A stretch of 31,980 bases of DNA from a virus (IMGVR_UViG_3300031862_000763:1-31980), one strand, 5' to 3'. Shown: positions 2,740 through 28,981, numbered from the stretch's first letter. A program made the numbers and translations. The notes: generated by a model not told the origin, from the sequence alone.

Positions 2740-3005
2740 AGAATTGCATCATCGTCAACCGGGCTAAGCGAAACCGGGAAAGCGATTACGTTGACCTTCA
2801 AGTTGCCACCCTTATCGGCGATCATGAGGGCGAAGAGCTCTGCATCGAGGAGCTTGTCACAGTCGCCGAAAAGGAGATGTCGAAATTCTCATGGACCAAT
2901 GACAAAATTCGTAATTCAGTGAACAGGCTTGAGAAAAGAGGGAGGATGGCGAGCAAGCACTTAATCAGGGAGGGGCGGCTGTGTCGGGTGCCATATCTGA
3001 TCTAA
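2736..3005 (+). CDS. Putative winged-helix protein
   Basis: 89 residues. After a short N-terminal part the sequence reads IEELVTVAEKEMSKFSWTND followed by KIRNSVNRLEKRGRMASKHL. This is a helix-turn-helix pattern in which the second helix precedes a wing. The start ATG at 2736 has GGAGAAGG just upstream and overlaps the previous stop. It forms a pair with the preceding winged-helix-like gene, so the two could be paralogous regulators. Confidence 0.6.
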   Translation: MKNCIIVNRAKRNRESDYVDLQVATLIGDHEGEELCIEELVTVAEKEMSKFSWTNDKIRNSVNRLEKRGRMASKHLIREGRLCRVPYLI

Positions 3006-3367
3006 AAGGCTCTTACGACGTCGTAAGAGTACAAAACATCTATTATGGAGAACAAGATTTTGGAGAAAGGTTCTTGCCTACCCCCATCTTCGGCTATAAG
3101 CACTTCATCGCCGAAGAGACACGGTTGCTATACCGGGGCCACCAATTTTCAATGTCTGAGTGGCCGTCTCATCTGCCTCCAAAGTTCATTCAAATCCAAG
3201 GCCGCTCGGCCAAAGAGGAGTTCAGCATCTACAATGACCGGCCCGAGATTCACATCCAAACGCGGTCTGGGGCAGTGCTGACTCTGGATGCTTGCCCATG
3301 TGGAGGTCGGCTGGTGCTTGACCGCAATGGCGATCTCTACTGCGAGGTTTGCTTTCAAATATATTAA
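2981..3367 (+). CDS. Zinc-ribbon protein, unknown function
   Basis: 128 residues from a GTG start. AGGGAGGGG lies about 6 bases upstream, and the start overlaps the previous gene by 25 bases. The C-terminus holds CPCGGRLVLDRNGDLYCEVC, a CxC...CxxC ribbon likely to bind zinc. The N-terminal hundred residues are not recognised. A 20-bp palindrome (3010-3029) lies inside the first codons, so a later start cannot be ruled out, although no in-frame ATG occurs before the MSEWPSH segment. Confidence 0.6.
   Translation: MSGAISDLKGSYDVVRVQNIYYGEQDFGERFLPTPIFGYKHFIAEETRLLYRGHQFSMSEWPSHLPPKFIQIQGRSAKEEFSIYNDRPEIHIQTRSGAVLTLDACPCGGRLVLDRNGDLYCEVCFQIY
3010..3029. promoter_or_regulatory. Perfect 20-bp palindrome
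   Basis: CTCTTACGACGTCGTAAGAG is a perfect inverted repeat with no spacer. It lies just after the stop codon of the upstream gene and within the first codons of the zinc-ribbon gene. It could be a protein-binding operator. As RNA it would need to open a loop, so a DNA site is more likely. Confidence 0.5.
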
Positions 3368-3795: not shown

Positions 3796-4230
3796 ATGAC
3801 CAACTGCTCCATCTGCGCCAGCAAAATCAAGCACAGGATAGACCAACTTATAGTGACTGGCGCGTCAAATCGCGCCATCTCGCGCCAGTTCCCCGACTTC
3901 TCGAAAGATGCTGTCAGGCGGCATCGGCCTCATGTTTCAAAGAAAATTCAGGAAGCCAATGAGGAGCGGGAAAAGGAGCACGGTCTCCAGCTCGATAGCC
4001 TTCTGAAGGAGACCGTGGAGGGCCTCCGGGACCTCGCGGATAACGCGAAGCATGCTGAAGATTATAAGGCGGCGGCCTCAGCACTTGGTCATATAATCCG
4101 GGTTGCGGAGATTTTGTCGAAGATGATTGATCCTGAGAATTATGGAAGGTCGCTTGAGACGCTGACGGATGAAGAACTGAATGCAGAAATCGCAGAGCTT
4201 CTCCAGAGAGCTGAAACTCAGGCTTCGTGA
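3796..4230 (+). CDS. Putative small terminase subunit
   Basis: 144 residues. The N-terminus has C4-x2-C7 followed by a helix-turn-helix-like segment (RIDQLIVTGASNRAISRQFP then DAVRRHRPHV), as in many phage small terminase or DNA-recognition proteins. The rest is helical (EERE...LLKETVEGLRDLADNA), suited to oligomerisation. It sits directly before the terminase ATPase gene and overlaps it by 50 bases. In tailed viruses this subunit recognises viral DNA and loads the motor. The family match is by pattern and position, not by a diagnostic motif. Confidence 0.65.
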   Translation: MTNCSICASKIKHRIDQLIVTGASNRAISRQFPDFSKDAVRRHRPHVSKKIQEANEEREKEHGLQLDSLLKETVEGLRDLADNAKHAEDYKAAASALGHIIRVAEILSKMIDPENYGRSLETLTDEELNAEIAELLQRAETQAS

Positions 4231-5017
4231 TGGGCTTCTAGAAGGGCGGCGGCGAAGGCATGCTTTTCAGCGGTCCAGGTGGGTCGAAGATCTCGGACTA
4301 ATTCGAGACAAGGAAGATAACCCCGTCCATCTAGATCCATGGCAAATTGCGATGCTGGATTCAGACAGCAAACGGATCTGTCTGAATATCCATAGGCAGG
4401 GCGGCAAGTCCGCCATGTCCTCCCTGATATGCCTTCACACGGCGATCTTCAAGAAGCGAAGCCTCTCACTGATCATCGCTCCGGCGCTCAGGCAATCGCA
4501 GGAAAATTTCAAGAAGATCCAGGACTACATTGATCTCTTGCCTAGAAGTCCGAAGTTCCATGAGTTCACTAAGCTGTCTCTGCAATTCGAAAACGGTTCA
4601 AGAATCCTGACCCTTCCGGGTGGCAACGAAGGCAGGACTATAAGGGGCTTCTCCCGGCCGGATGTCATAGTCGAGGATGAGAGTGCTCAATGCTCTGAGG
4701 AGCTTTTTGATGCCATTCTCCCGATGATGACCACGTATCCGCAATGCAAGTTCATCCTCTGTTCGACACCCTTCGGCCAGCGCGGGCACTTCTATAAGAT
4801 CTACACTGAGAATCAGGCATGGGAGAAGCATAAGTTACGGGCCGATGAGAACCCGAGGATCTCAAAAGACTTCCTTGCCGAAATGAGAGAATTGAGAGGA
4901 CCGTACGTTTTCGCACAGGAGTATGAATGTGAGTTTGTGGCATCGGAGACGCAATTAATTTCACATGAGAGTATCCTAAAATCTCTGAACAGTGAAATAC
5001 CAATTATTGAAATATGA
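4181..5017 (+). CDS. terL: Terminase large subunit, ATPase part (split gene)
   Basis: 278 residues forming the motor half of a terminase. A Walker A-like motif (HRQGGKS, residues 71-77) follows the adenine-binding region (DPWQIAML). Walker B with the catalytic acid is VIVEDE (162-167), and CSTPFG (194-199) is the coupling motif. The protein ends after the linker (VASETQLISHESILKSLN) just where the nuclease domain should begin; full-length terminases usually run on for about 200 residues. The missing domain is encoded at 5609-6187, beyond an HNH module. The TGA overlaps an ATG at 5014, the start of the former nuclease gene. Confidence 0.92.
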   Translation: MQKSQSFSRELKLRLRDGLLEGRRRRHAFQRSRWVEDLGLIRDKEDNPVHLDPWQIAMLDSDSKRICLNIHRQGGKSAMSSLICLHTAIFKKRSLSLIIAPALRQSQENFKKIQDYIDLLPRSPKFHEFTKLSLQFENGSRILTLPGGNEGRTIRGFSRPDVIVEDESAQCSEELFDAILPMMTTYPQCKFILCSTPFGQRGHFYKIYTENQAWEKHKLRADENPRISKDFLAEMRELRGPYVFAQEYECEFVASETQLISHESILKSLNSEIPIIEI

Positions 5018-5037
5018 GAAAATACGTATCAGTAGAC
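5014..5037 (+). pseudogene. Stub of original terminase nuclease start
   Basis: The ATG overlaps the ATPase stop (ATGA) and reads MRKYVSVD before running into the HNH module. The intact nuclease gene at 5609 begins MTFILALD, with the same hydrophobic pattern ending in the first catalytic Asp. I infer that this is the remnant of the earlier gene start, cut off at its catalytic codon by the module. The remnant is very short, so the inference leans on the two other cases. Confidence 0.45.
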
Positions 5038-5054
5038 GCGATACATATAAATAG
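5035..5054 (+). promoter_or_regulatory. Conserved TATA promoter of HNH module 1
   Basis: This 20-base block matches the blocks at 6209-6228 and 12941-12960 at most positions. It contains ATATAAATAG at 5045-5054. The first stem of the RNA leader begins 30 bases after the start of this box, the distance expected for an archaeal transcription start. Confidence 0.65.
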
Positions 5055-5074
5055 TAAGCAGCTAATCACTATCT

Positions 5075-5155
5075 GCTGGATAGGTCGGCCAACCGAAAAG
5101 GGATTTTCCGAGATCCCCTGCCAGCTTCAAATCTTCTCGGACACTATCGGAGGTG
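5075..5155 (+). ncRNA. Pseudoknotted HNH-leader RNA, copy 1
   Basis: Stem A is GCTGG/CCAGC (5075-5079 with 5121-5125). Inside it lie a small GGT/ACC hairpin (5083-5085 with 5092-5094), a GAAAA linker, and stem B GGGAT/ATCCC (5100-5104 with 5113-5117) with the 8-nt loop TTTCCGAG. The loop bases TCCGAG pair with CTCGGA at 5136-5141. A second target, TCGGA at 5147-5151, runs into the ribosome binding site GGAGGTG (5149-5155). The stems differ in sequence from copies 2 and 3 but pair in the same way. Confidence 0.8.
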
Positions 5156-5161
5156 TATTTC

Positions 5162-5608
5162 ATGAGAAGCAAAGCAGCTCAAAAAAAATACGAAAAGTAC
5201 CAAAAAGCATATCGCAAGGCACACAGAGAGGAAAATAGAGCATATTGTAAAGCTTATCGTCTTGCGCATTTAGAAGAGCGAAAGGCGTATGATAAAGCGC
5301 GAGGGAAGATATATTACGAACAGAACGTCGATAAAATACGCACACATCGCCGAAAAGTTCATCTTTCTTATTACGATTCAACAAAAAACAAGTATTTGAA
5401 AATGCATGGCAGTCGGTGCGCTTGCTGTGGATATGACAAGAATATAGCGGCGCTTGAATTTCATCATGTCAACGGAAAGACGAAAGGAATTTCATTTATG
5501 ATAAGTCGGCATGAATCAGATGAATTGCTAAAAGCCGAAATCGATAAGTGTGTCCTGCTTTGCGCAAATTGCCACGCTGAACACCATCACGGTGGATTGC
5601 GGTATTAA
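5162..5608 (+). CDS. HNH endonuclease of module 1
   Basis: 148 residues from the ATG at 5162, six bases after GGAGGTG; an in-frame GTG at 5153 is less likely. The N-terminal half is a highly charged Lys/Tyr/Ala-rich helix. The C-terminal half is an HNH nuclease: zinc ligands CACC, the core EFHHVNGK, then CANCHAEHHH. Such free-standing HNH enzymes cut DNA and spread by homing. The gene is richer in A and T than the flanking terminase genes, suggesting separate origin. Its TAA is directly followed by the ATG of the terminase nuclease gene. Confidence 0.85.
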   Translation: MRSKAAQKKYEKYQKAYRKAHREENRAYCKAYRLAHLEERKAYDKARGKIYYEQNVDKIRTHRRKVHLSYYDSTKNKYLKMHGSRCACCGYDKNIAALEFHHVNGKTKGISFMISRHESDELLKAEIDKCVLLCANCHAEHHHGGLRY

Positions 5609-6187
5609 ATGACGTTCATCCTAGCTCTTGATCCTGCCCAGCTCCGAGACTGGAGTGCCCTGGCGGCTGTGGACATGCAATACAGACCAGCCGAGAGGCG
5701 TTTCGGCTACGATCTTGTGGCCATGAACCGCAAACAGGGCCTTCCTTATGATCAGATAGTTGATTGGGTTGTTAAGACTCTGAAGAATCCTGCCTTCAAT
5801 CAGAAGCAACCGCCTGAATTCCTCCTAGATTCCACGGGCGTTGGCGTGGCTGTCAGAGATATGCTCGCAGCCAAGGGCGTGAAGCTCAAGGCAGTGACAA
5901 TTACGGCAGGCGAGAGCATCACAAGGCAAGGCCCTATAATCCATCTCGGCAAGGCGAGGCTCATCGGCAAGTTCCTGGGGGCCTTCGATGCTGGCAAGGT
6001 TCACGTCAACCCGAACATGCCTATCTGGCCTGCCGTCGAGCGAGAAATGCTATCCTTCCGGGCCGAGATGAGCGCACAGAGGCGCGTGAAGATGGAAGCC
6101 GAACAGGGCGAATCAGACGATATGCTTTTTAGTTTGGCTTTATGCATTTGGTACGGAGAAGAAATATTAAGAGGCGGCAGACTATGA
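5609..6187 (+). CDS. Terminase large subunit, nuclease part (split gene)
   Basis: 192 residues with the RNase H-like fold of terminase nucleases. The first metal-binding Asp is in ILALDPAQLRDWSAL (D8), the second in FLLDSTGVG (D74), and the third in ESDDMLFSLALCIW (D170/D171). These are the normal landmarks of the C-terminal half of a large terminase. The start codon abuts the HNH stop codon (TAAATG), so it is translated as a separate chain. It presumably assembles with the ATPase part to cut concatemers during packaging. Confidence 0.85.
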   Translation: MTFILALDPAQLRDWSALAAVDMQYRPAERRFGYDLVAMNRKQGLPYDQIVDWVVKTLKNPAFNQKQPPEFLLDSTGVGVAVRDMLAAKGVKLKAVTITAGESITRQGPIIHLGKARLIGKFLGAFDAGKVHVNPNMPIWPAVEREMLSFRAEMSAQRRVKMEAEQGESDDMLFSLALCIWYGEEILRGGRL

Positions 6188-6208
6188 TCTGCGTTATCGA
6201 TATCCAGC
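6184..6208 (+). pseudogene. Stub of original zinc-ribbon gene start
   Basis: An ATG overlapping the nuclease stop reads MICVI and then continues through DIQR into the module promoter. The intact gene beyond the module begins INILCVICGQDI, which shares the LCVI/ICVI part at protein level and TGCGTxAT at DNA level. I infer that the module was inserted in or just after this start. The remnant is very short. Confidence 0.4.
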
Positions 6209-6228
6209 GACACGATATATATGAATAG
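6209..6228 (+). promoter_or_regulatory. Conserved TATA promoter of HNH module 2
   Basis: This is the second copy of the conserved block, with ATATGAATAG at 6219-6228. The core of the first RNA stem (TGAGGC, from 6248) lies 29 bases after the start of the box, as in module 3. Confidence 0.65.
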
Positions 6229-6243
6229 CATCGTCACTATTAG

Positions 6244-6328
6244 CAAGTGAGGCTAGGGTAGCTCCCGAAAGCTGCTTTTCTGAGAGCAGTTGCCTCACTT
6301 GAAACTTCTCAGAACACTATCAGAGGTG
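6244..6328 (+). ncRNA. Pseudoknotted HNH-leader RNA, copy 2
   Basis: Stem A is 10 bp here (6244-6253 with 6292-6301, core TGAGGC/GCCTCA). Inside are GGG/CCC (6256-6258 with 6264-6266), GAAA, and stem B CTGCT/AGCAG (6272-6276 with 6285-6289) with loop TTTCTGAG. Loop TCTGAG pairs with CTCAGA at 6308-6313. The loop has U where copies 1 and 3 have C, and both downstream targets (6308-6313 and TCAGA at 6320-6324) have A instead of G, so pairing is kept. GAGGTG at 6323-6328 is the ribosome binding site. Confidence 0.85.
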
Positions 6329-6381
6329 TGATTTAATGAGAGAAACCATCGTATTTAATGGAATAGCTTATCACAGATACC

Positions 6382-6389
6382 CCAATTCG
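6382..6389. repeat. Target-site duplication, left copy
   Basis: CCAATTCG directly precedes the left end of the insertion sequence. The same 8 bases follow its right end at 7559-7566. Removing the element and one copy restores the endonuclease reading frame. Confidence 0.9.
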
Positions 6390-6448
6390 GGTAGTCTACC
6401 GTAAACAAGTTTATATGCCTTCGTTGCATGATTTAATCGGGGAAAGCA

Positions 6449-6916
6449 ATGAAGACAGATCGATTAGCTTTAGCGGGTTCGTTTTGTTGGAATAGAGACT
6501 GTCCTGGCTATGGCAAAGTAGATCACGGAAACATAGTCCGGTATGGTCGGACTGACAAGGGCACGCAGCGTTTGAAATGCAAAATCTGTGGCAGAGTATT
6601 CGTAGGGAATAAAGGGACCATATTTTATGGCTTGCATCATAGCCCAAAAGAAATCCTAGAATGCCTGGCTATGCTTGCCGAAAGGAACAGTCTGGCAGCC
6701 ATCCATAGAATAAAAGGGATAAAAGAAGAAACAATTGTGGATTGGCTCCGCAAAGCGGCAAATCATGCTGAAGAGATTGAGGCACTGCTTCTGGCTAACC
6801 ACCATCTAACCCGTGTCCAGCTCGATGCCATGTGGACCTACGTAGGTCACAAGGGGGAAAAAGTAACCATCCCGAGGAGCCCGATCGAGGCACATTCTGG
6901 CGAGGCACTGCAATAG
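6449..6916 (+). CDS. IS1-family transposase, first frame (InsA-like)
   Basis: 155 residues. A zinc-finger-like start (CWNRDCPGYG then LKCKICGRVFVGNKGT) is followed by a helix-turn-helix region (SLAAIHRIKGIKEETIVDWL), as in InsA proteins that bind the element ends. The frame also includes the first catalytic Asp in QLDAMWTYVGHKG and then ends 23 residues later. The remaining catalytic residues are in the -1 frame starting near 6856, so a full transposase needs a frameshift. Without it this product would be a DNA-binding repressor. Confidence 0.85.
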   Translation: MKTDRLALAGSFCWNRDCPGYGKVDHGNIVRYGRTDKGTQRLKCKICGRVFVGNKGTIFYGLHHSPKEILECLAMLAERNSLAAIHRIKGIKEETIVDWLRKAANHAEEIEALLLANHHLTRVQLDAMWTYVGHKGEKVTIPRSPIEAHSGEALQ

Positions 6917-7545
6917 ACGTTGATACGAGGCTGAGAGTGGGACGTGCAATAGGAAAGAATGAGGAAGAAGTCGCAGCGGTTATGATGTTGCAAATAAAAG
7001 ATCGCTGCAACCCCATTGAACCCCCTGCAATATCGAGCGACGGAAACGACAGTTATCCTGAAGCAATGCTTGAAACCTGGGGAAAGTTGCCTGAATACAC
7101 TGGTAGAGGAAGGCCTCCAATACGCAAACAACCGCAGCCTGGTTGGAAATGCCTTCAAGTGACGAAGCATCGATCTGGTGGCAGGTTGATCCGCGTCACT
7201 CACAGAGTAGTTTATGGAGATCCTAACGAGGTGCCAAATTTTATGGGCTTGAATACGGCCTACGTCGAAAGGACGAATCTAACTTCGCGGCAAATGAATG
7301 GACGAATGGTTCGAAAGACCCTATCATTCTCTAAAGAGGAGAAGATGCTGAAAGCTTCTTGTTCCTTGGAGGATGCGGTCTATAACTTTGCGAGACCTGT
7401 TAAATCCTTACGAAAAGAAGCTAATAGTGATCAGCGACGATGGGAGCACAGATCTCCTGCCATGGCAGCTGGTATAACCGATCATATCTGGACAATTGAC
7501 GAAATTATGATGATGTTAGTGGTTCCTGAAGAGAACAACGCATAA
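6832..7545 (+). CDS. IS1-family transposase, second frame (InsB-like, made by -1 frameshift)
   Basis: The frame is open from about 6832, but the conserved part begins near GTAIDVDTRLRVGRAIGK. It carries the second catalytic Asp (SSDGNDSYPEAM) and the final Glu region (NLTSRQMNGRMVRKTLSFSK then E). At 6853-6863 the sequence is five G then five A then G. Slipping back by one base on AAA there joins VGHKGEK to SNHPEEP and gives one transposase of about 365 residues. The ATG at 6832 is probably not used as a start. Confidence 0.8.
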   Translation: MDLRRSQGGKSNHPEEPDRGTFWRGTAIDVDTRLRVGRAIGKNEEEVAAVMMLQIKDRCNPIEPPAISSDGNDSYPEAMLETWGKLPEYTGRGRPPIRKQPQPGWKCLQVTKHRSGGRLIRVTHRVVYGDPNEVPNFMGLNTAYVERTNLTSRQMNGRMVRKTLSFSKEEKMLKASCSLEDAVYNFARPVKSLRKEANSDQRRWEHRSPAMAAGITDHIWTIDEIMMMLVVPEENNA

Positions 7546-7558
7546 TGGGGTGACTACC

Positions 7559-7566
7559 CCAATTCG
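7559..7566. repeat. Target-site duplication, right copy
   Basis: CCAATTCG directly follows GACTACC, the right end of the insertion sequence, and matches the left copy exactly. Confidence 0.9.
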
Positions 7567-7943
7567 AAGTCACAAACAAATTGTGTATATTTCACAGGAT
7601 CGATCGACGGAAAAACCGTAAGACTTCACCAAGAAATCTTCAAACAGCATCACGGCGACATTCCAGTCGGACATCATGTACATCATAAAGATGGAAATCC
7701 TCTGAACAATTCAATAGAAAATCTCGTCTTGTCTTCAGAGCACGATCACCATTCTTATCACACCATAGAAAACGCGGACAGTCTATACAAAGGCAAGAAA
7801 GCCTTTTGGAATAAACAAAAATATCGCGAAGTTGTGTGCTTGGAATGTGGCAAAAGATATCAAACTCGCTCAACCAGAGACGCAAAATTCTGCTCATCGA
7901 ATTGCTGGAACAGATCTCACGCTAAATCGAAAAGGAAACCGGG

Positions 7944-8171
7944 TTGATTAATATTCTATGCGTCATATGCGGCCAGGATATCTCCGAGCTCAGGCAAAAG
8001 CCCGTGCCCATTGCTCGACTGGAATTCCGCCCCTACATCGGCCAGCAGGAACCCGGCCAGGACAACCTCTCAGGGCTGGAGGCCTGCCAGGAATGCTACG
8101 AAAGTGTGCTGAAGAACCGCTCCAAGGCCATCGCCCAATACGGAAAGATCAAGGATACTGATGCTCACTGA
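7944..8171 (+). CDS. Four-cysteine zinc-ribbon protein
   Basis: 75 residues with CVIC (C6, C9) and CQEC (C48, C51), a likely zinc ribbon. It begins at a TTG overlapping the stop codon of the HNH gene, an unusual arrangement suggesting that the module replaced the original ATG (see the stub at 6184). It ends 11 bases into the portal gene, so it belongs to the head operon. Its function is unknown; a small protein between terminase and portal may help packaging. Confidence 0.65.
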   Translation: MINILCVICGQDISELRQKPVPIARLEFRPYIGQQEPGQDNLSGLEACQECYESVLKNRSKAIAQYGKIKDTDAH

Positions 8172-9540
8172 TTTATCGTGGATATCAAAGGCCCGACCCT
8201 GGCCTCCAGAGGATCAGGATGAGGCCAGCCGGCTCAAAGAGCACGCCTTCAACCGCCAGGTCTACAATAATCAGCATGAGGTCTTCAGCAAATACGCCGC
8301 CTATCTGCAGGACAAGGCAGACGATGATAAGAAAATCCCCATCATCCTCGGCTGGGGCGAGAAGGCCACAACTAATTATATAAATCTCTGCATAGGTGAG
8401 CCGTTAGATGTCGAAATAGACAACGTGGACTCAGTCGAGGAACGTCCAGATGAAGAGGTCCTGATTGATGTCTCACGATACGGCATAGGCCTCTATGAGC
8501 CGACCCAAGAAGGCATCATGGCTCAGAACCCGGAAAACTGCTACATGGTTACAGGTCTGGGCAATTTCCGAAAGGTCACAGCATATGTATTCTTCCGCAC
8601 GTTCAAGGTTGAAAAGCTGGAGTATGTCAAGCTCACGATCCATGGCAAGGGCTTCATACAGCATCTTATCTATGAAATTGCCAATGGGAAGCTCGGAGAT
8701 CGTCAGGATCTGAAAAGGTTTGTACCGTTCGCAGATCTGAAGGTCGATGCCGAGGGCAAGCAGAGTACCGGCGTCGATGACATTCTGATAGTCCGGGTCG
8801 ACAATGCGCTCAGCTCGGAGAGGCGCTATGGCCGATCTGACTATACGCCTTCCGTGGTCTCGCTGATCGAAGCTCTGGAGTTGGCATTTTCCCGGCGAGA
8901 GGAAGTCCTGGCGAAGTTTGCCCGGCCGGTGTTCATGGCACCGGAGAGCGCTTTCAATCATTTCAATCATGCCAAGCAGGTTTGGGAGATCCGGCTCGAT
9001 GCTCCCCTGATGGTCGAGCCCGGCAGCATGGAAGCAAAGTATCTTACCTGGCAGGCCGAACTCGGTGCTGTCGAGAACGCCATCAAGGACAAGATGGATC
9101 AGCTTCTCTACATGCTCGACCTGGTGAAGCAGGAGGAGCTCGGCACCGCTCAGAGCGGCACAGCCCTGGCATTCAGGCTGATCCCGACGACCTCTCGGGT
9201 GCGCAAGTTCGCCAACAGTCTGAAGAAGGCCATCCCGAAGGTCCTGAGCCTCAAGAGCAAACTCGATGTCGCTCTAAAGGTTGAAGGCGCAATAGCTTTT
9301 GAGCCTGAAGCGGTTTCGGTGGTGCCACAGGACGGCATCCCCAGAGATCCCCTGCAGACGGCCACATGGGCGACGATGGCCTTTTCAACGCAGGGCATGA
9401 GCCTGGAGACTTACGTCTCGCTGACTCAGGGCCTGGAGCCGGATAGCGACGCTCTGATGGCCGAGGTGGCCAGGATCAAAGGCGCACAGCCAGCCGCGCC
9501 AGCGGCACCGACGATAGAGCTGCCACCGCTTGGACAATGA
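8161..9540 (+). CDS. Portal protein (SPP1 gp6-like)
   Basis: 459 residues, the usual size for this family. Position after terminase, the segment SSERRYGRSDYTPSVVSLIE, the long helical part (AELGAVENAIKDKMDQLLYM) and SGTALAFRLIPTTSRVRKFA followed by a helix all match SPP1-type portals. The Pro/Ala-rich tail (AQPAAPAAPTIELPPLGQ) is probably disordered. Portals form the dodecameric ring at one capsid vertex through which DNA enters and leaves and to which the tail joins. The ATG at 8161 overlaps the preceding gene. Confidence 0.85.
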   Translation: MLTDLSWISKARPWPPEDQDEASRLKEHAFNRQVYNNQHEVFSKYAAYLQDKADDDKKIPIILGWGEKATTNYINLCIGEPLDVEIDNVDSVEERPDEEVLIDVSRYGIGLYEPTQEGIMAQNPENCYMVTGLGNFRKVTAYVFFRTFKVEKLEYVKLTIHGKGFIQHLIYEIANGKLGDRQDLKRFVPFADLKVDAEGKQSTGVDDILIVRVDNALSSERRYGRSDYTPSVVSLIEALELAFSRREEVLAKFARPVFMAPESAFNHFNHAKQVWEIRLDAPLMVEPGSMEAKYLTWQAELGAVENAIKDKMDQLLYMLDLVKQEELGTAQSGTALAFRLIPTTSRVRKFANSLKKAIPKVLSLKSKLDVALKVEGAIAFEPEAVSVVPQDGIPRDPLQTATWATMAFSTQGMSLETYVSLTQGLEPDSDALMAEVARIKGAQPAAPAAPTIELPPLGQ

Positions 9541-9600
9541 GGATAATTTCTCAAGGGAGCTCCTGGGGAACGAGAGCTCAAATTAGCACAAAAGGATAAC

Positions 9601-10494
9601 ATGGCTGATTCTCCGCTCTCCGACGCTCAGGCCCAGCGGCTCATCAAGCTCTACGATGAAGCCGAGAAGGAGATCCTGAAGGAGTGCAACCGGCTGCTCC
9701 TAAAGAATCCCGAAAGCTACAGTATGGCCTGGCAGAAGACCATCCTCCAGCGAGTTCAGCAGATCCGGGCCGATCTCCTGGCCGGATCGAGGACCTGGTG
9801 CCAGGAAGCCATCCCGGCCAGCTACATGAAGGGCGTGGCCTGGGCCGATGCGGACCCTCTGGCCGGGAACAAGGTCCTCGCTGGCTTCGGTCAAATTCAT
9901 CAACAGGCTGCGCAAGTGCTGGCAGAGAATACGTACAGCCGCTTCATTGGCGTAGATCAGATTGTAGGCCGCCAGGTGGACGATCTTTTCCGATCCGTGG
10001 CCCTGGAGAATATCAAGGGCTCTGTGATTGGCTATGAGACGACCGCCAAGGCGGCCAGAAGGATCCGGGAGGACCTGGCGGAGCGCGGAATTACAGGCTT
10101 TCGTGATAGGGCGGGGCGAGATTGGAGTCTATCTCGCTATGCGAAGGTGGCCGCCCAGGAATCCACTAATCAAAGCTTCCGGCAAGGCACCCTAAACCGC
10201 TTCCAGGAGAATGGGCATGATCTCGTTCGCCTCTCCAGCCATTCGGGGAGTTGTAAGCAATGCCAGCAATTTGAGGGCCGGACGTTCAGCTTGTCGGGTA
10301 ATGACACAGAGTACCCCTCGCTCGATGAAGCGCGAGCGGGTGGCGTGTTTCATGTGGGCTGCCTGCACACGATCTCTCTCGCACCCGAGGAAAAGGACCG
10401 CTTCATAGGGCGGCTGCATGGGGCGGAGGGCGAGGAAACGAGACAGATCGAGATAGATAGGTTGGCGGCGGCATATGCCCGCGAGCATTCATAG
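9601..10494 (+). CDS. Minor head protein (SPP1 gp7 / phage minor capsid type)
   Basis: 297 residues. The central part (RYAKVAAQESTNQSFRQGTL then NRFQENGHDLVRLSSHSGSC) and the C-x2-C pair (CKQC) followed by FEGRTFSLSG and GVFHVGCLHTISL form the conserved C-terminal domain of minor capsid/head morphogenesis proteins found next to portals. These proteins sit inside the head near the portal and may be ejected with DNA. AGGAT precedes the ATG. The upstream 60-bp gap contains a short GAGCTC inverted repeat. Confidence 0.85.
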   Translation: MADSPLSDAQAQRLIKLYDEAEKEILKECNRLLLKNPESYSMAWQKTILQRVQQIRADLLAGSRTWCQEAIPASYMKGVAWADADPLAGNKVLAGFGQIHQQAAQVLAENTYSRFIGVDQIVGRQVDDLFRSVALENIKGSVIGYETTAKAARRIREDLAERGITGFRDRAGRDWSLSRYAKVAAQESTNQSFRQGTLNRFQENGHDLVRLSSHSGSCKQCQQFEGRTFSLSGNDTEYPSLDEARAGGVFHVGCLHTISLAPEEKDRFIGRLHGAEGEETRQIEIDRLAAAYAREHS

Positions 10495-10496
10495 TT

Positions 10497-10590
10497 ATGT
10501 GGCCGGAAACCAGCGGTTCCCCTGTGCTCAGCCGGGAATGCACCGAACGTCCTTAGGGCCTTGTAGGTGGCGGAGATGAGACGGCCACAT
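10497..10590 (+). ncRNA. Candidate multi-stem RNA between minor head and scaffold genes
   Basis: A perfect 9-bp stem (ATGTGGCCG at 10497-10505 with CGGCCACAT at 10582-10590) closes a 76-nt segment. Inside are TTCCC/GGGAA (10517-10521 with 10534-10538) and a weaker CACC/GGTG (10541-10544 with 10566-10569), together resembling a three-way junction. It begins three bases after the upstream stop codon in a gene-free stretch. Only one copy is present, so there is no covariation support. Confidence 0.45.
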
Positions 10591-10621
10591 TTCACAATCA
10601 TCTTTTCACAAGAACAGCCAA

Positions 10622-10643
10622 CGCCGGGCTTGATCGGCGGGAG
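10622..10643 (+). promoter_or_regulatory. Hairpin overlapping scaffold ribosome binding site
   Basis: CGCCG/CGGCG (10622-10626 with 10635-10639) closes an 8-nt loop. The ribosome binding site GGGAG (10639-10643) touches the 3' arm and the ATG follows at 10652. Folding could reduce initiation at the scaffold gene. Confidence 0.4.
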
Positions 10644-10651
10644 ATATTTCT

Positions 10652-11335
10652 ATGGCAGGTAACCCAGCAACAGCGCCTACGCCTGGCGCTAACCAACAGG
10701 CGGGTAACACTCCGACGCCGGGACAGGACCCACAGTCGGGAGACAACCAACAGCAACAGCAGACACCGGCTGCAACTCCGGGGATTCAGCAACATCAGCC
10801 AGCTCCGTTCATTATGAACCAGGAGCAATTCAATCAGCGTTGGGCTGAAAAGCACGCAGACATCGAGAAAGATCTTGGCATGCCCCTCAAGGACGCCAAG
10901 GCCCTGATCGAGTCCACCAAGAAGCCCCCAGCTCCAGCAACATCAACAGAGACGCTTACAGGGGCGGAACTTAGGATGGCAAAGATGGAAGCGCTCATGC
11001 TGGCCGGAGTGCCGTCCAAGAAGATACCTGGCCTTCTTTCAAGAGTTCAGGGGAAAAGCAAGGCAGACATCGAGGCGGATATCAAATTGATGGTGGCTGA
11101 TGGCTTCATTATCATCCAGGGGCCCAAGCCCGCTGCACAGCCTCAGCAGCAACAGCAGCAGATGCCGGCGACAACGCCCACCGCTGCTCAGGGTGCAGGG
11201 AACACCGGCGTACCTGCTTCTGGAGAAAAGACATTCACAGAATCGCAGATTGCCGCAATGTCTCCAGAGGAGTATGAGAAAAATCGCGATGCGATTTTCA
11301 AGGCCATGGAGGCGGGGGCGATCAAGAAAGGTTGA
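10652..11335 (+). CDS. Scaffold protein
   Basis: 227 residues, low complexity. The N-terminus is rich in Pro, Gln, Gly and Thr, a predicted helical middle (QFNQRWAEKHADIEKDLGMP; AELRMAKMEALMLAGV) follows, then another Gln/Pro/Ala linker and a helical C-terminus (ESQIAAMSPEEYEKNRDAIF). This composition and the position directly before the major capsid gene fit head scaffolds, which direct shell assembly and then leave. The C-terminal helices are the usual coat-binding part. Confidence 0.75.
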   Translation: MAGNPATAPTPGANQQAGNTPTPGQDPQSGDNQQQQQTPAATPGIQQHQPAPFIMNQEQFNQRWAEKHADIEKDLGMPLKDAKALIESTKKPPAPATSTETLTGAELRMAKMEALMLAGVPSKKIPGLLSRVQGKSKADIEADIKLMVADGFIIIQGPKPAAQPQQQQQQMPATTPTAAQGAGNTGVPASGEKTFTESQIAAMSPEEYEKNRDAIFKAMEAGAIKKG

Positions 11336-11341
11336 TTTTAG

Positions 11342-12220
11342 ATGACTCTAAGCAATTTCATCCCATCAATATGGGTAAACGAGGTTCAGAGGAACCTTGA
11401 GAAGTACCTGGTTTACGCCCAGGTTGGTATCGTTAATCGCAACTACGAAGGTGAGATCACCGGTGCTGGAGACACCGTAAAGATCAATGGCATCGGGCCG
11501 GTGACTGTTCACAAGTACAAGAAGAATACTGATCTTCCCGATCCCGAAACCCTGACCGATGCTCAGAAGACTCTTCCGATCGATCAGCAGGACGATTTCA
11601 ACTTCCAGGTGGACGACATAGATGCCATGCAGACCAAGCCAAAGGTGATGGCAGCCGCCATGCTGGAAGCATCCTATGCCCTCAAGGACGGTGTTGATCA
11701 GTACATAGCGAGCCTCTACACCGATGCCAGCGCCGCCAACCTGATCGGCTCAGATGCAACCCCCAAAGTTCCCAACAACGTTGAGAACGATGCCCAGAAC
11801 TGCTATAATCTGCTGGTGGACAGCGCTGTCAAGCTCACCAAATCCCGTGTGCCCATAGAGGGCAGGTTCGTAATCGTTCCACCTGAGTATTATGGCCTGC
11901 TCCTCAAAGAGAAGCGGTTCATAGACTATTCGAAGGCGGGGACCACCGCCGGACTCAGGAATGGTGAGGTGGGCATGGCAGCTGGTTTCCAGGTCTTGCA
12001 GAGCCATAACGTGCCATGCACGACTGCGGGTGATGGAGCACAGTCCAAGTTCAAGATTCTCTTCGGCACCTCCAGGGCCATCACCTTCGCCAATCAGATT
12101 GCTAAGATCGAGCCCTACCGGATGGAGAAGAGGTTTGCCGATGCCGTCAAGGGCCTGAACGTGTACGGCGCAAAGGTCGCTAGGCCCGAGGCGCTGGGTG
12201 TTCTGACCTGTAATGTGTGA
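11342..12220 (+). CDS. Major capsid protein (HK97 fold, P22 coat-like)
   Basis: 292 residues. The start (MTLSNFIPSIWVNEVQRNLE), the early strand region (GAGDTVKINGIGPVTVHKYK), the helix with KPKVMAAAMLEASYALKDGV and the late segment RMEKRFADAVKGLNVYGAKV followed by ARPEALGV are typical of P22/gp5-like coat proteins. Size, position after the scaffold and high gene order conservation support the call. It builds the icosahedral shell. It is followed after 9 bases by the decoration-type gene. Confidence 0.88.
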   Translation: MTLSNFIPSIWVNEVQRNLEKYLVYAQVGIVNRNYEGEITGAGDTVKINGIGPVTVHKYKKNTDLPDPETLTDAQKTLPIDQQDDFNFQVDDIDAMQTKPKVMAAAMLEASYALKDGVDQYIASLYTDASAANLIGSDATPKVPNNVENDAQNCYNLLVDSAVKLTKSRVPIEGRFVIVPPEYYGLLLKEKRFIDYSKAGTTAGLRNGEVGMAAGFQVLQSHNVPCTTAGDGAQSKFKILFGTSRAITFANQIAKIEPYRMEKRFADAVKGLNVYGAKVARPEALGVLTCNV

Positions 12221-12229
12221 GGTGATGCG

Positions 12230-12640
12230 ATGAAGAAAATTCTTTCTATCCTTTTCGCCCTGATGCTCGTGGGCATGGCCGGCGCGGCTACTCAGATCAA
12301 CCAGTATAATCAGTCCTGGACGCTCACAACCAACAGCGGACCGGACATCTGGACTCCTGCCGCTACCAGCATGTATGTTTGGGCCGTGACTGGCGGAAAT
12401 CAGTATCTTGTGGTGAATACCACTGTAGACAGCGGCGAGAACGGCATTAACCTAACGGTGCAGTCGGGCGGCTTTTGGGGTGGCGCAGCTGGAAATGCTA
12501 CGGTCACTCTGGAGAAAAACAGGACCTATATTCTTGGGCCATTCGATCTCAGCCGCTTCAAGACCACTGGAGAAAAGATCCAGTTCGCCTTGAATGCCAC
12601 CAGAGGCAAGATGTTCTGCATCGGCGGGGTGAAGGGATAA
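12230..12640 (+). CDS. Decoration-type capsid protein with signal peptide and N-glycosylation sequons
   Basis: 136 residues. The N-terminus MKKILSILFALMLVGMAGAA is a classic Sec signal peptide: Lys pair, hydrophobic core and Ala-x-Ala-like end. The mature part is strand-rich, with QYLVVNTTV and NRTYILGPFDLSRF resembling small head-decoration domains in which a GPF motif closes the barrel. Six N-x-S/T sequons are present (N27, N63, N74, N89, N97, N122). GAGGTGAT precedes the ATG. A decoration protein that is exported and glycosylated would be unusual; a secreted or cell-surface role is the alternative. Confidence 0.65.
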   Translation: MKKILSILFALMLVGMAGAATQINQYNQSWTLTTNSGPDIWTPAATSMYVWAVTGGNQYLVVNTTVDSGENGINLTVQSGGFWGGAAGNATVTLEKNRTYILGPFDLSRFKTTGEKIQFALNATRGKMFCIGGVKG

Positions 12641-12798
12641 TGTGGTTCCGAAACAAGAATACTGGGGCCGAGTGGGATATCACCGACCCCAACACTCTGG
12701 CCAGAGTCAAGGCCGATCCCACGACCTATGAGGAGGTCAAGCCCGAAGAGCCCGCAAAGCCCGAAAAGAAGATCAGAGAACCGGATAAATCCGGCTGA
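12640..12798 (+). CDS. Small hypothetical head-region protein
   Basis: 52 residues. The first half (MWFRNKNTGAEWDITDPNTL) is strand-like and ends in a PTTYEEV segment. The second half is a charged Pro/Glu/Lys tail, probably disordered. Proteins of this size and design are frequent between capsid and connector genes of siphoviruses, but their role is not known. Its ATG overlaps the previous TAA. Confidence 0.6.
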   Translation: MWFRNKNTGAEWDITDPNTLARVKADPTTYEEVKPEEPAKPEKKIREPDKSG

Positions 12799-12819
12799 TC
12801 TTTATTTCTTTGTGAAATC

Positions 12820-12936
12820 ATGACCGACGTCGCCAACTCCTACATTATAACATTAGGGGAAGCTGACCAGATGGCCGTCACCAGGCCCAATTCTTCAGCC
12901 TGGACAGGCTCCGGGAAGGCCGCCATAAACACATAG
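12820..12936 (+). pseudogene. Stub of original head-tail connector start
   Basis: 38 codons beginning MTDVANSYIITLGEADQMAV and including an SSAW then GKAAINT segment, ending at TAG just before the HNH module. This is the typical start of head-tail connector proteins: a strand, 'leeAd', then Trp and a helix. The intact connector gene beyond the module (13858) begins with a diverged version (VYISLTDSKTWIAAHIKSTE, then W and DDAAKT). I infer that the module cut off this start and supplied a replacement. Confidence 0.65.
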
Positions 12937-12940
12937 CAGA

Positions 12941-12960
12941 GACACGACATATATAAATAG
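12941..12960 (+). promoter_or_regulatory. Conserved TATA promoter of HNH module 3
   Basis: This is the third copy of the conserved block. ATATAAATAG lies at 12951-12960 and the RNA stem TGAGGC starts 29 bases after its first base. Confidence 0.65.
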
Positions 12961-12979
12961 CATTGTCGCCAATGGCGAT

Positions 12980-13059
12980 TGAGGCTAGGGTAGCTCCCGA
13001 AAGCACCTTTTCCGAGAGGTGTTGCCTCATCTAACTATCTCGGAGCACTATCGGAGGTG
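12980..13059 (+). ncRNA. Pseudoknotted HNH-leader RNA, copy 3
   Basis: Stem A is TGAGGC/GCCTCA (12980-12985 with 13024-13029). GGG/CCC (12988-12990 with 12996-12998), GAAAG and stem B CACCT/AGGTG (13004-13008 with 13017-13021) with loop TTTCCGAG follow. Loop TCCGAG pairs with CTCGGA at 13039-13044. A second target TCGGA (13051-13055) runs into the ribosome binding site GGAGGTG (13053-13059). Stem B shares no sequence with copies 1 or 2, yet pairs perfectly. Confidence 0.85.
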
Positions 13060-13064
13060 CCAAA

Positions 13065-13886
13065 TTGCCTATATACCAGAATAAGGATTGGCTACTGGAA
13101 GAGTACGTAAATCAGAGACAACCTACCACCACGCTCGCGAGAAAAGCCAACCGTGACGTATCTACAATCTGTTATTGGCTGAAAAAACAAGGTATTCCTC
13201 TGAGGTCGCCGGGGGAGACTCTGCAAGGGCGGCGTTGGACTGAAGAACAGAAGAGATCTCTCAGGGAGAAGCGCAAACAGCCGGAAAGAATTGTAGTTTC
13301 GCCCGAGTGGTTGCATTATCATTACGAAGTTCTATCAGAAACGACTTATGAAATAGCGGCTCGGATAGGATGTGCTCCCACATGTATCCAAGCAAAGCTT
13401 AAGAAGTTGGGCATAAAGTCGAAACACGGCCTCCGAAAGAAGAATGTTCCCGAGAGTCTCAGAAAAAGGCAGGCCGAAGCTTGGAAAGGTTCTCGAAATC
13501 CAATGTACGGTTCGCACAGAATAGGCAATGCCAACCCCATGTATGGAAGGCGCGGGCCGGACAATCCGCAATGGCGCGGCGGGAGATCATTCGAGCCCTA
13601 TTGCCCTCATTTCAATCAAGCTTTGAAGGAGTCAGTTAGGGACGAATTCGGTAGGCGTTGCTTTTTATGTGGTAAAGATGAAAAAAGCAATTGTAGAAGG
13701 CACCACATCCACCACGTGGACTACAACAAAGGACAAGGATGTGGGCAACGGTGGAGTCTCGTTCCTCTATGCGGAAGTTGCCATGGCAAGACCAATAAAA
13801 ACCGTTGGCACTGGTTCAATTTGATGGCGAACTACTGGGTAATGGACTTGGAGATAAATGCAAATGGTGTATATTTCCCTGACTGA
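13065..13886 (+). CDS. NUMOD3/HNH homing endonuclease of module 3
   Basis: 273 residues from a TTG five bases after GGAGGTG. The first 130 residues hold two helix-turn-helix-like segments (TLARKANRDVSTICYWLKKQ and TYEIAARIGCAPTCIQAKLK). Residues about 150-170 contain NPMYG repeats (RNPMYGSHRIGNANPMYGRR), the NUMOD3 DNA-binding motif. The C-terminus is HNH: CFLCGKDE, RHHIHHVDYNKG, then LVPLCGSCHGKTN. The domain set matches phage homing endonucleases of the GIY/HNH modular type. It ends 29 bases inside the connector gene. Confidence 0.88.
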   Translation: MPIYQNKDWLLEEYVNQRQPTTTLARKANRDVSTICYWLKKQGIPLRSPGETLQGRRWTEEQKRSLREKRKQPERIVVSPEWLHYHYEVLSETTYEIAARIGCAPTCIQAKLKKLGIKSKHGLRKKNVPESLRKRQAEAWKGSRNPMYGSHRIGNANPMYGRRGPDNPQWRGGRSFEPYCPHFNQALKESVRDEFGRRCFLCGKDEKSNCRRHHIHHVDYNKGQGCGQRWSLVPLCGSCHGKTNKNRWHWFNLMANYWVMDLEINANGVYFPD

Positions 13887-14367
13887 TTCAAAAACCTGGA
13901 TCGCGGCTCACATCAAGAGTACAGAGCGCATTGGCTGGGACGCCCTAGATGATGCTGCCAAGACAATTTGTCTACAGGAGGCCGAGGACAGGATTGATTC
14001 TCTGCCGCTACGAGGTCAGCGCTACGAGGATTTTTATTTTTACAACGGTGCCCAAAAGGACATCAACGGCGACGGCCTCACGCAGATCCAAGAGTTCCCC
14101 AGGGTCATCGACGGCGTGACGTGTGACTGGGATCATGGCACAAGCCTGCCAATTGTGCCGCATGCTGTGAAGAATGCTGTCTGTTGGGAGGCGGTGGTTA
14201 TTGCCTCCGGCAGCAGCAGGAGAGTTCTTCAGGAGCAGGGCGTGCAGAGCTTCAGCATCGGCGGCAAGCTCTCGGAGACCTTCCGGGCCGGGGCAGGAAC
14301 TGAGGGCTTGATATCGGCTCAGGCTAGGCGGTATATGCGCAAGTTCGTCGGAGCTGAACTTAGATGA
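13858..14367 (+). CDS. Head-tail connector (adaptor) protein
   Basis: 169 residues (start at 13858 or the ATG at 13864). An N-terminal strand and helix precede LQEAEDRIDSLPLRGQRY, followed by a middle part and helices ending RRYMRKFVGAELR. This is the layout of gp6/YqbG-like connectors that bind the portal and extend the neck. A stub of a different version of its start lies upstream of the HNH module, so the present N-terminus appears to have come with that module. It overlaps the next gene by 4 bases. Confidence 0.7.
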   Translation: MQMVYISLTDSKTWIAAHIKSTERIGWDALDDAAKTICLQEAEDRIDSLPLRGQRYEDFYFYNGAQKDINGDGLTQIQEFPRVIDGVTCDWDHGTSLPIVPHAVKNAVCWEAVVIASGSSRRVLQEQGVQSFSIGGKLSETFRAGAGTEGLISAQARRYMRKFVGAELR

Positions 14368-23706: not shown

Positions 23707-26442
23707 TTGCAACAGAAAATCGACATGAGGCTGGCTCGGTGGATCAAGAAAGCCCCGCAGTATTATGGCGAGACATACATTGACTCCATGGTCGTTTTCA
23801 ATGACAAACTCTACGGAGGGACTTTTGAAAGCGGGCTGCTGTTCGAGTGGAATGGCTCAGATGCATGGATCTTGAGGGCGTCTCCCCTTGGTGAGATACC
23901 AAACCACGAGCATGACATATGTTCGCTGGCGGTTTTCAATGGCAAGCTCTACGGCGGAACCTCTCCACGTGGCAAGTTGGCTGAGTGGAATGGATCCAAT
24001 GCCTGGGTCGAGAAGGCTCCTCAATTTGGAGCTGAGACACACATCTATTCATTGGCGGTTTTTAATGGTAAGCTCTATGGAGGGTCATATCCTCATGGTA
24101 AGCTATTAGAGTGGAACGGATCCAACGCTTGGGTAGAAAAGGCCCCACAGTTGGGCAGCGAGACCGCCGTCAACTCCCTCACAGTTTTCAATGGCAAGCT
24201 CTACGCCGGAACATACCCTCACGGCAAGCTGTATGAATGGAACGGCATTGATGCCTGGGTCGAGAGAGCTCCTCAATCAGGCGGCGAGACCGATATTTAT
24301 TCGTTGGCGATTCTCAATGATAAGCTCTATGGAGGAGGGTATGGTACAGGCAAGCTGTTTGAGTGGAACGGTTCTGATGCCTGGGTCGAAAAAGCACCCC
24401 AGTTAGGCAGCAATACCATACGCTCCCTAGTCGTTTTCAATGGCAAGCTCTACGCAGGTACGTATTGGTATAACTACAATAACGGCGGTGGAGAGCTATT
24501 CGAGTGGAACGGCACCGACGCCTGGATAGAAAAAGCACGTCAGTTGTATAGTCAAATGGAGATCACCTGTCTGGTGGTTTTCAATGAAAAGCTCTATGGT
24601 GGAGCGGCCCCGGATGGCCTGCTATTCCAGCTCACATGGGCGGCTGACAAACCCGCCCCTACACAATCTGATGTAAAAATATATGTCATCCCCCCCGACA
24701 TCGCTTTCGACCGGAGCGAGCTCGATCGGTATTCCATCCGCGCCCTGAACTGGAATCTGAAGAGATATCGACAAGACGACTCGCTCAAGCCGAGGGAGCT
24801 GGAGCTGACAGTAGATCGCAGGACCCCGCTCAGGGAGTTCTATGAGGTCCTCGTGGTCGATGAGGTGCCGGTCTTCCGCGGGTATGTAGAACGAGAGCTG
24901 AGCGTCACAAAGGAAAATAGGAAATACCTCTGTAAAGGGCATGAGGCGAAGCTATACCATCGCTTCATGCCGAAGATGGCTTTCACCGTCAGTACAGCGA
25001 CTCTAAATGAAGTTTTGCGAGACAATTTTGTCCCATCTTTATACTATCCGAGTAATCCTGGAATACTGTTTTGTGCCAATAACTACTGGCCGCCAGGCAC
25101 AGAGTATACGATATACGATTCTGCAAAAAATATAGCCCTACTCAGGTTCAAGGACACCAATATTGATATTGGAGATGCTAATTTATTTGTCCGGGATGCA
25201 GAGGGCAACACCCTAAAGCTACTGACAAAATATGATGCCCTTTCAGACTTACAGAGCTATGATCTCAGTTACTACGTCAACACCAACAAAGACCTCTACA
25301 TCAGAGTGGTAGACTCCAAGTGGTACGTCCTGGGTGGCCTGTGGGCTGAGAAGGTTTTCGACACAAAAGTACGCATGGGAGAGCAGGATATCTGGTGGAA
25401 TCGGCTGTTGAACGGGGCGCTGTATTGTGATGGTGATGAGATCGCCTCGTTGCTTTTCGCTTTGGCAAAGTCCCACAACTATTTCGTCTCCATTAGAGAT
25501 GATTATGAGTACACATATCTCGATTTCAAGCTCACCAGCGGTCGAGGAGTCGGCACCGGACTGGTGACGCTGCATGAAAGTGACCTGCTGAGCTTCGAGA
25601 AGACCACTACCTCAAAGCCTCCTGCCCAGGCGATCATAGGCCGGGGCGAAGGCAACCAGATATATTCGGCGGTTGATATGCACATCAAGAGCGGGCTGTA
25701 CGATGTCGAACAATTCACCGACACGTATCGCAGGCTGGCCGGGAAGCTAATCGCTTTGACCAAGGCATCTTTGGCCGCCCGGCAACAGGCCTCTACCTGG
25801 GCCGTGAAATCCAAACCCAAAAAGGTCACCTCTCTCGTCCCAGGGGATTTTGTCAAGCTGCTCATAGACGGCGAAGCTGAAGAGATCCCTCAGATAGCAC
25901 AGATGGATAATACACCGGATAAGGTCACGCTCCAGCTCGGCGAGAGGGTGCCGGGTTTCGTCGATGCCTGGAAGGCACGCAGCATCTCAGAGCAGACGTT
26001 CAAGGATTACAAGCTCTGGGAGGCTTGGCCGGAAGTCACACAGTCGGTGACGTTCAAGCCTCGGGACCTGGTTCATAATACCTGTGCCGTTGGTTCGTTA
26101 GTCTTCACCGTGCCTGCTGGGGTCACGAGCGACGTGCGCTCTCTTGTGACTCTCGACCTGAGCTGCAGCCTCTCTGATGCTTTCGCTGCGGAGAGGAATG
26201 CATGGTATATCGCCATCAGCATTGGTGGAAGTAGTGGCCTGTTCGGCGTATTCGAGGAGATCCCTCTCGAAGATTCACTACACATCGATATCACAGATAT
26301 AGTGACTGCCGGGGCGAATAACACTGTGCAGATTGTTGCAAAATACCTGGGCAACTTCACGAACTACCACAGCGATTGCTCGGGGCATCCTGACATCACG
26401 TGCAGCGGGACTATGAAGTTTTGGAGGATTAATCTACTATGA
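23707..26442 (+). CDS. Tail hub/adhesion protein with N-terminal seven-repeat propeller
   Basis: 911 residues (TTG start at 23707, or ATG 23725). Residues about 25-310 hold seven repeats of about 42 residues built on LAVFNGKLYGGTYPHGKLYE, then WNGSDAWVEKAPQLG, likely a seven-bladed beta-propeller. Residues about 320-911 read as a tail hub-like part: IRALNWNLKRYRQDDSLKPR, VVDEVPVFRGYVERELSVTK, and a jelly-roll-like C-terminus (HIDITDIVTAGANNTVQIVA). It probably forms the tail tip and binds host surface sugars or protein. It follows the tape measure, as hub genes do. Confidence 0.65.
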   Translation: MQQKIDMRLARWIKKAPQYYGETYIDSMVVFNDKLYGGTFESGLLFEWNGSDAWILRASPLGEIPNHEHDICSLAVFNGKLYGGTSPRGKLAEWNGSNAWVEKAPQFGAETHIYSLAVFNGKLYGGSYPHGKLLEWNGSNAWVEKAPQLGSETAVNSLTVFNGKLYAGTYPHGKLYEWNGIDAWVERAPQSGGETDIYSLAILNDKLYGGGYGTGKLFEWNGSDAWVEKAPQLGSNTIRSLVVFNGKLYAGTYWYNYNNGGGELFEWNGTDAWIEKARQLYSQMEITCLVVFNEKLYGGAAPDGLLFQLTWAADKPAPTQSDVKIYVIPPDIAFDRSELDRYSIRALNWNLKRYRQDDSLKPRELELTVDRRTPLREFYEVLVVDEVPVFRGYVERELSVTKENRKYLCKGHEAKLYHRFMPKMAFTVSTATLNEVLRDNFVPSLYYPSNPGILFCANNYWPPGTEYTIYDSAKNIALLRFKDTNIDIGDANLFVRDAEGNTLKLLTKYDALSDLQSYDLSYYVNTNKDLYIRVVDSKWYVLGGLWAEKVFDTKVRMGEQDIWWNRLLNGALYCDGDEIASLLFALAKSHNYFVSIRDDYEYTYLDFKLTSGRGVGTGLVTLHESDLLSFEKTTTSKPPAQAIIGRGEGNQIYSAVDMHIKSGLYDVEQFTDTYRRLAGKLIALTKASLAARQQASTWAVKSKPKKVTSLVPGDFVKLLIDGEAEEIPQIAQMDNTPDKVTLQLGERVPGFVDAWKARSISEQTFKDYKLWEAWPEVTQSVTFKPRDLVHNTCAVGSLVFTVPAGVTSDVRSLVTLDLSCSLSDAFAAERNAWYIAISIGGSSGLFGVFEEIPLEDSLHIDITDIVTAGANNTVQIVAKYLGNFTNYHSDCSGHPDITCSGTMKFWRINLL

Positions 26443-28979: not shown

Positions 28980-28981
28980 AC

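Follow-up and report, generated by a model that had tools for sequence, protein, structure and literature searches.

The virus record IMGVR_UViG_3300031862_000763:1-31980 of IMG/VR was analyzed over its full length of 31,980 nucleotides (nt), which we refer to as the window. Three copies of a structured RNA leader were read directly in its sequence, copy 1 at 5075-5155, copy 2 at 6247-6328 and copy 3 at 12980-13059. Each leader ends at a ribosome-binding site that is followed by an open frame, and HNH endonuclease genes lie behind all three copies. The leaders, their promoter elements, the inserted elements and the genes described with them are on the plus strand. As judged by the capsid protein, the closest named relative is Caudoviricetes sp. 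vir515 of Methanosarcinales (53% identity), so that the host of the virus is likely archaeal.

A first-pass annotation of this DNA had proposed that the three leaders share one pseudoknotted fold, and all of its parts were recovered at these places: a stem A, a 3-bp hairpin, a GAAA linker, a stem B with an 8-nt loop, and a downstream complement of this loop. In copy 1, stem A is formed by 5075-5079/5121-5125, the hairpin by 5083-5085/5092-5094 and stem B by 5100-5104/5113-5117, with the loop at 5105-5112. The same elements lie at 6247-6253/6292-6298, 6256-6258/6264-6266, 6272-6276/6285-6289 and 6277-6284 (loop TTTCTGAG) in copy 2, and at 12980-12985/13024-13029, 12988-12990/12996-12998, 13004-13008/13017-13021 and 13009-13016 in copy 3. 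The RNA is predicted to fold into a three-way junction of stem A, the short hairpin and stem B, with conserved UAG and GAAA(A) linkers. A likeness of this junction to the hammerhead, suggested by the GAAA linker, was rejected, because a CUGAUGA strand is missing. The word TATCRGAGGTG occurs three times in the window compared to 0.01 expected, and three or more occurrences were seen in none of 100 shuffles.

Complementarity of the loop to two direct repeats

The annotation had paired the stem-B loop with a single downstream target. This pairing is real, but it is only half of the design. The loop is complementary to two direct repeats, site 1 located 3' of stem A and site 2 at the predicted ribosome-binding site. 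In copy 1, site 1 (CTCGGA, 5136-5141) and site 2 (TCGGAGG, 5147-5153, 8 nt before the ATG at 5162) gave computed loop duplexes of -8.8 and -7.9 kcal/mol. The values for copy 3 were -9.4 kcal/mol for site 1 (CTCGGA, 13039-13044) and -7.9 kcal/mol for site 2 (TCGGAGG, 13051-13057, 7 nt before the TTG at 13065). In copy 2, where the loop of the RNA reads UUUCUGAG and the sites are CUCAGA and UCAGAGG, a C to U change in the loop is matched by G to A in both target copies (CUCAGA and AUCAGAGG). Here the loop duplex amounts to -8.2 kcal/mol on site 1 (CTCAGA, 6308-6313) and to -6.4 kcal/mol on site 2 (TCAGAGG, 6320-6326, 9 nt before the ATG at 6336), while the loop of copy 3 would reach only -3.5 and -1.7 kcal/mol on the same sites. 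Over the three copies, site 1 duplexes range from -8.2 to -9.4 kcal/mol and site 2 duplexes from -6.4 to -7.9 kcal/mol.

The two sites are separated by the word CACTATC (5142-5148, 6315-6321 and 13046-13052). It hardly varies across the viral UCCGA subgroup and the planctomycete copy L122, but is absent from proteobacterial int-alpA RNA. A pairing of the junction sequence GATAG with CACTATC was considered and dropped, because many copies have CUAG instead.

About 140 relatives, comprising sets of 66 and 72 leaders, likewise show a loop that matches two copies of one short word. Leader L144 has the loop CUCUCAC and contains GUGAGAG twice; L123 combines the loop UUCUAGU with the sites ACUAGAA and ACUAGAGG, and L175 the loop AGACCUGUCA with UGACAGGUCU and UGACAGG. 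When the 66 leaders were scored with their own loops, the best pairing reached 16.15 and the second 13.95, compared to 11.86 +/- 0.37 and 8.37 +/- 0.46 with permuted loops. Permutation within Gammaproteobacteria, Planctomycetota and viruses separately did not reach the observed pairing in any of 1000 rounds. The second set of 72 leaders was found solely via the hairpin word CTAGGGTMGCTCCCGAA and is hence blind to the loop and the sites. It gave 15.58 and 12.97, compared to 10.56 +/- 0.40 and 7.20 +/- 0.39 after permutation, and in neither set did any permutation attain the observed values. Homologous DUF1376 genes carry leaders in which the loops differ and both sites are altered to match (loop/site 1/site 2, e.g., TCATCAC/GTGATGA/TGATG, TTTCAC/GTGAAAG/TGAAAG, CGTCAC/GTGACGA/GACGA and CTTCAC/GTGAAGG/TGAAGG).

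Site 2 ends a median of 8 nt (66-leader set) or 5 nt (72-leader set) before the start codon. Since site 2 is devoid of a Shine-Dalgarno-like tetramer in 29 of the 72 leaders, its match to the loop is more than an anti-Shine-Dalgarno pairing. Site 1 was the stronger loop partner in 41 leaders and site 2 in 12; the corresponding counts in the second set were 51 and 12. At the sequence level, these data demonstrate the fold, its position before start codons, the pairing potential, and a covariation that links the loop with both sites.

Relation to int-alpA RNA and distribution of the leader

A covariance model, R1, was built from the leaders L012, L023 and L058 only, with neither window sequences nor sequences that pass the Rfam model of int-alpA RNA (RF02996). 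On the window it matched exactly the three leaders (copy 1, E 3.7e-10; copy 2, E 1.6e-15; copy 3, E 8.1e-19) and nothing elsewhere up to E = 1. Since L012 closely resembles copies 2 and 3, copy 1 provides the most independent test of R1. Pattern scans of viral contigs revealed further leaders whose stems differ in sequence yet still pair. Among 35 distinct homologous cores, 96.7% of the cells were paired, double-sided changes occurred in 14 of 14 stem pairs, and 140 cells held double changes. The covariation score was 0.723 versus 0.173 in shuffled alignments, and none of 500 shuffles reached any of these measures. Together with the loop change of copy 2, this bears out the covarying pseudoknotted leader described by the annotation. 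The core alignment was fitted to the structure, but slid controls drop to 41-52% paired. A second model, R2, includes window sequences; R1 and the set of 72 leaders are the cleaner tests. L035 was without the fold and was excluded, and the pattern TTTTCCGA...CTATCGGAGGTG gave chance matches only across genome contigs.

According to the annotation, no described RNA class has this arrangement. This could not be upheld, as int-alpA RNA has the same one. The RF02996 model found copy 1 with 26.9 bits (E 2.5e-5 for its genome), below the gathering cut-off of 35.8; copies 2 and 3 were not reported by this search, and none of the window copies reached the cut-off. An Rfam scan of the whole window at the gathering cut-off, and of copy 3 at E up to 10, returned nothing relevant. 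The homologous phage leaders L085 (38.5 bits) and L049 (37.2 bits) exceed the cut-off, and R1 in turn also finds the int-alpA loci L132, L146 and L125 (E 1e-5 to 1e-4). Alignment of int-alpA with the window leaders revealed the same secondary structure and junction nucleotides, and its loop, too, complements the word at the 3' end. Window copies 2 and 3 even have the same hairpin word, CUAGGGUAGCUCCCGAA, as proteobacterial int-alpA. We conclude that, by sequence and predicted structure, the window leaders are a divergent subfamily of the int-alpA RNA class.

Members of int-alpA were found in 21 of 185 genomes of Gammaproteobacteria and the family in 12 of 149 genomes of Planctomycetota, and no credible copy was present in 249 genomes of Bacillota. 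The sole Bacillota match of R2 (L169, 1 of 249 genomes) was dropped, its sequence resembling a TPP riboswitch before a transporter-like gene; this apparent TPP riboswitch is a chance structural match to R2. The hairpin-word scan of viral contigs yielded at least 72 leaders. Copies are present in cultured phages of Enterobacter, Salmonella, Klebsiella, Pseudomonas, Vibrio and Psychrobacter. One close variant occurs in E. coli prophages, next to either a DUF551 gene or a frame without annotation; 50 of 5,426 complete genomes carry it.

The nucleases encoded downstream are of the HNH, GIY-YIG, DUF559 and endonuclease VII types, so that the further copies before HNH and other mobile nuclease genes anticipated by the annotation do exist. 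Other downstream genes encode integrase, YhcG, ORF6N/Bro-N (KilA/Bro types), DUF1376, lambda P, Rha and TPR proteins, and many are of no assigned family; ten downstream proteins had no match in NCBIfam. In viruses of archaea as well as bacteria, the RNA thus stands in front of mobile or accessory genes that are unrelated to one another. It is indeed the RNA and not the enzyme that stays constant, but it is restricted neither to HNH genes nor to viruses of archaea. Two leaders that differ in their loops (UUUCCGAG and GUCUUG) occur together in a single phage contig, in front of an HNH and a GIY-YIG gene (L015 at ~2960-3027 and L119 at 1384-1455).

Promoters and inserted elements in the window

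Archaeal TATA boxes were identified by sequence reading at 5046-5053 for copy 1 (TATAAATA, ~27 nt upstream of stem A), at 6216-6227 for copy 2 (TATATATGAATA) and at 12950-12959 for copy 3 (TATATAAATA). Their distance to stem A is 26-28 nt in the window leaders. Among the bacterial copies, TATAAT-like hexamers are most frequent 3-8 nt upstream of stem A, and TATAAT precedes the leader in many bacterial viruses. The RNA is predicted to begin at the transcription start, at or just before stem A.

Element 1 (5018-5608) consists of the promoter, leader copy 1 and HNH gene 1 (5162-5608; 148 amino acids; phrog_2255 HNH endonuclease, E 3.6e-20), and its insertion point coincides precisely with the ATGA by which two terminase genes overlap. 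The junction is empty in 16 relatives, in which the terminase ATPase and nuclease genes are adjacent or overlapping without an insert; in nearly every case they meet in ATGA or TGA/ATG. The large terminase is encoded by two adjacent genes in the window (4181-6187) and in all 16 relatives with both halves (L152-L168), mostly with an ATGA overlap. A terminase split by an intron was rejected, because both genes are separate in all relatives.

The region of element 2 (6184-7943) comprises the start of gene E (6184-6198), leader copy 2 and HNH gene 2. The small zinc-ribbon-like gene E, intact in relatives, is split after ~5 codons and resumes at ~7944. The remnant of HNH gene 2 matches phrog_15471. 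An IS1-like element at 6389-7560 (ends GGGTAGTC/GACTACCC, target duplication CCCCAATTCG) breaks this gene, so that HNH genes do stand behind all three leaders as originally annotated, but the second is not intact.

Element 3 cuts a head-tail adaptor gene. An orphan N-terminal piece of 38 codons (12820-12936) matches the N-terminus of the intact relative in L188. It is followed by leader copy 3, HNH gene 3 (13065-13886; 273 amino acids; phrog_8446 HNH endonuclease, E 2.3e-29) and the adaptor gene with a replacement N-terminus (13858-14367; phrog_477 head-tail adaptor Ad1; relatives L188-L190 and L151). The interrupted genes after elements 2 and 3 (7944 and 13858) have a new N-terminus that resembles the lost one, and the inserts appear to supply replacement N-terminal coding sequence for the genes they cut. 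Intact empty sites were found in relatives for all three elements, which we interpret as homing-type insertions in which the encoded nuclease would cut the empty allele. The mobility of the elements is thus shown by sequence, and leader and nuclease gene arrive jointly.

Elsewhere in the window (23707-30523), the proteins at 23707, 26439 and 29660 contain many repeats, two of them of the type AGGGNAGNAICMGG / EEYNGTSWSSGG. The two of these proteins that were compared to Pfam had no match there. Perhaps the three proteins have tail or adhesin functions.

Proposed mechanism, alternatives and known systems

We propose that the RNA is probably a 5' leader with two alternating pseudoknots, through which it would control translation initiation of the inserted genes. 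The leaders would be the 5' untranslated regions of the inserted homing-type HNH genes, and the stem-B loop would pair with either site 1 or site 2, never with both. With the loop on site 1 the ribosome-binding site would be free (ON), and upon loss of this pairing the loop would cover the initiation region via site 2 (OFF). A bistable translational switch appears most likely because the two exclusive pairings free or cover the ribosome-binding site. Site 1 is transcribed first and is usually the stronger partner, and its pairing is therefore proposed as the ON state. A signal, be it a ligand, a protein, or ribosome or RNase traffic, would shift the balance between the states. The leader would travel with mobile and accessory genes and limit or time their expression. 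From the complementarities we infer the formation of both pseudoknots, the ON role of site 1, and the switching with its direction and trigger.

Several points weigh against this proposal. Permutation leaves some relatedness in the data, a concern that the DUF1376 series and the tests inside each group lessen. For a few leaders (e.g., L145, L227 and L228) the parse is poor or no second site is convincing. The two sites could serve something besides switching, and if site 1 is favored both kinetically and energetically, the driver of the alternative state would be left unexplained.

A ligand-sensing riboswitch is conceivable, though we regard it as rather unlikely. Here, the junction with its UAG and GAAA(A) linkers would bind an ion or small molecule that occurs in both archaea and bacteria, and the pseudoknots would act as expression platform. 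The unpaired junction nucleotides are conserved in phage, planctomycete and proteobacterial copies as well as in those of the Methanosarcinales virus, and the genes downstream are unrelated. The two proposed exclusive states, for which we found covarying alternative pairings, would resemble those of translational riboswitches. However, no metabolic theme is common to the downstream genes, no ligand is known, and the window has no match to any riboswitch family in Rfam. More doubtful still is a static portable leader, whose folded 5' end would stabilize the mRNA and insulate the ribosome-binding site from adjacent sequence, with site 1 keeping the loop off site 2. The position of stem A at the predicted +1, the strength of site 1 and the service to genes inserted in many contexts agree with it, yet the covarying match of site 2, even outside a Shine-Dalgarno sequence, would be left unexplained.

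A small RNA (sRNA) acting in trans, in line with the Rfam type 'Gene; sRNA' of int-alpA, is highly improbable, given that nearly all parsed copies directly precede an open frame whose start follows site 2 within a few nt, and that both loop targets lie in cis and covary copy by copy. Least credible is a guide RNA (OMEGA/HEARO-like), intron or self-cleaving ribozyme of an HNH element, which would suit leader and HNH gene being one mobile unit but not the many non-nuclease partners (DUF1376, integrase, ORF6N, Bro-N, lambda P, TPR), the many unrelated downstream families in place of one IscB/IsrB/TnpB-type nuclease, the missing covariance-model match in the window to any Rfam group I/II intron or known self-cleaving ribozyme family, or the terminase halves with their own start and stop also where the insert is absent; the annotation had likewise set aside group I introns and HEARO/OMEGA RNAs.

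With the two-pseudoknot leader, int-alpA, catalogued without function and typed sRNA, would be recast as a cis-acting leader with a testable two-state mechanism. Beyond proteobacteria, its range now includes planctomycetes, many phages and an archaeal virus. Homing nucleases from several superfamilies share one RNA device with integrases, replication genes and further accessory genes, and the copies in cultured phages and E. coli prophages make the class directly testable. More tentatively, and as a conjecture that may well fail, int-alpA and the window leaders might constitute a single class of RNA sensors that viruses and mobile elements use across domains, and whose loop would choose between a decoy and the ribosome-binding site on a signal shared by archaea and bacteria, timing inserted selfish or accessory genes.

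In int-alpA as in the window leaders, stem A is followed by UA(G), the hairpin, GAAAA, stem B with a loop of ~9 nt, stem A', a linker and, at the 3' end, a word that is complementary to the loop. The window leaders differ in that they fall below the Rfam cut-off; furthermore, the Rfam model is without site 2, because its 71 positions end near site 1, and the class is typed sRNA. int-alpA reportedly originates from a 2017 report of 224 candidate structured RNAs. To our knowledge, and going by its Rfam type and a literature search that returned one unrelated mention only, no function has been assigned to it. In preQ1-II, SAM-II and SAM-V riboswitches, loop pairing into the ribosome-binding region controls initiation. 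In contrast to these, the leaders described here have no known ligand, offer two alternative targets as a direct repeat, and precede unrelated mobile-element genes.

Homing endonuclease genes under RNA structure at the ribosome-binding site are also known from the T4 group, where translation of I-TevI, segB and Aeh1 mobE is held down by simple local hairpins and relieved by a late promoter inside the hairpin (PMC2988022). The leaders differ from these by one conserved complex fold with two exclusive predicted pseudoknots, found before unrelated genes in archaeal and bacterial viruses. Like mobE, a homing HNH gene inserted in the essential phage gene nrdA of Aeh1 (PMC2988022), elements 1-3 are HNH insertions among viral genes. 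Unlike there, the split of the terminase predates the insertion, and the genes cut by elements 2 and 3 appear to receive a new N-terminus from these inserts.

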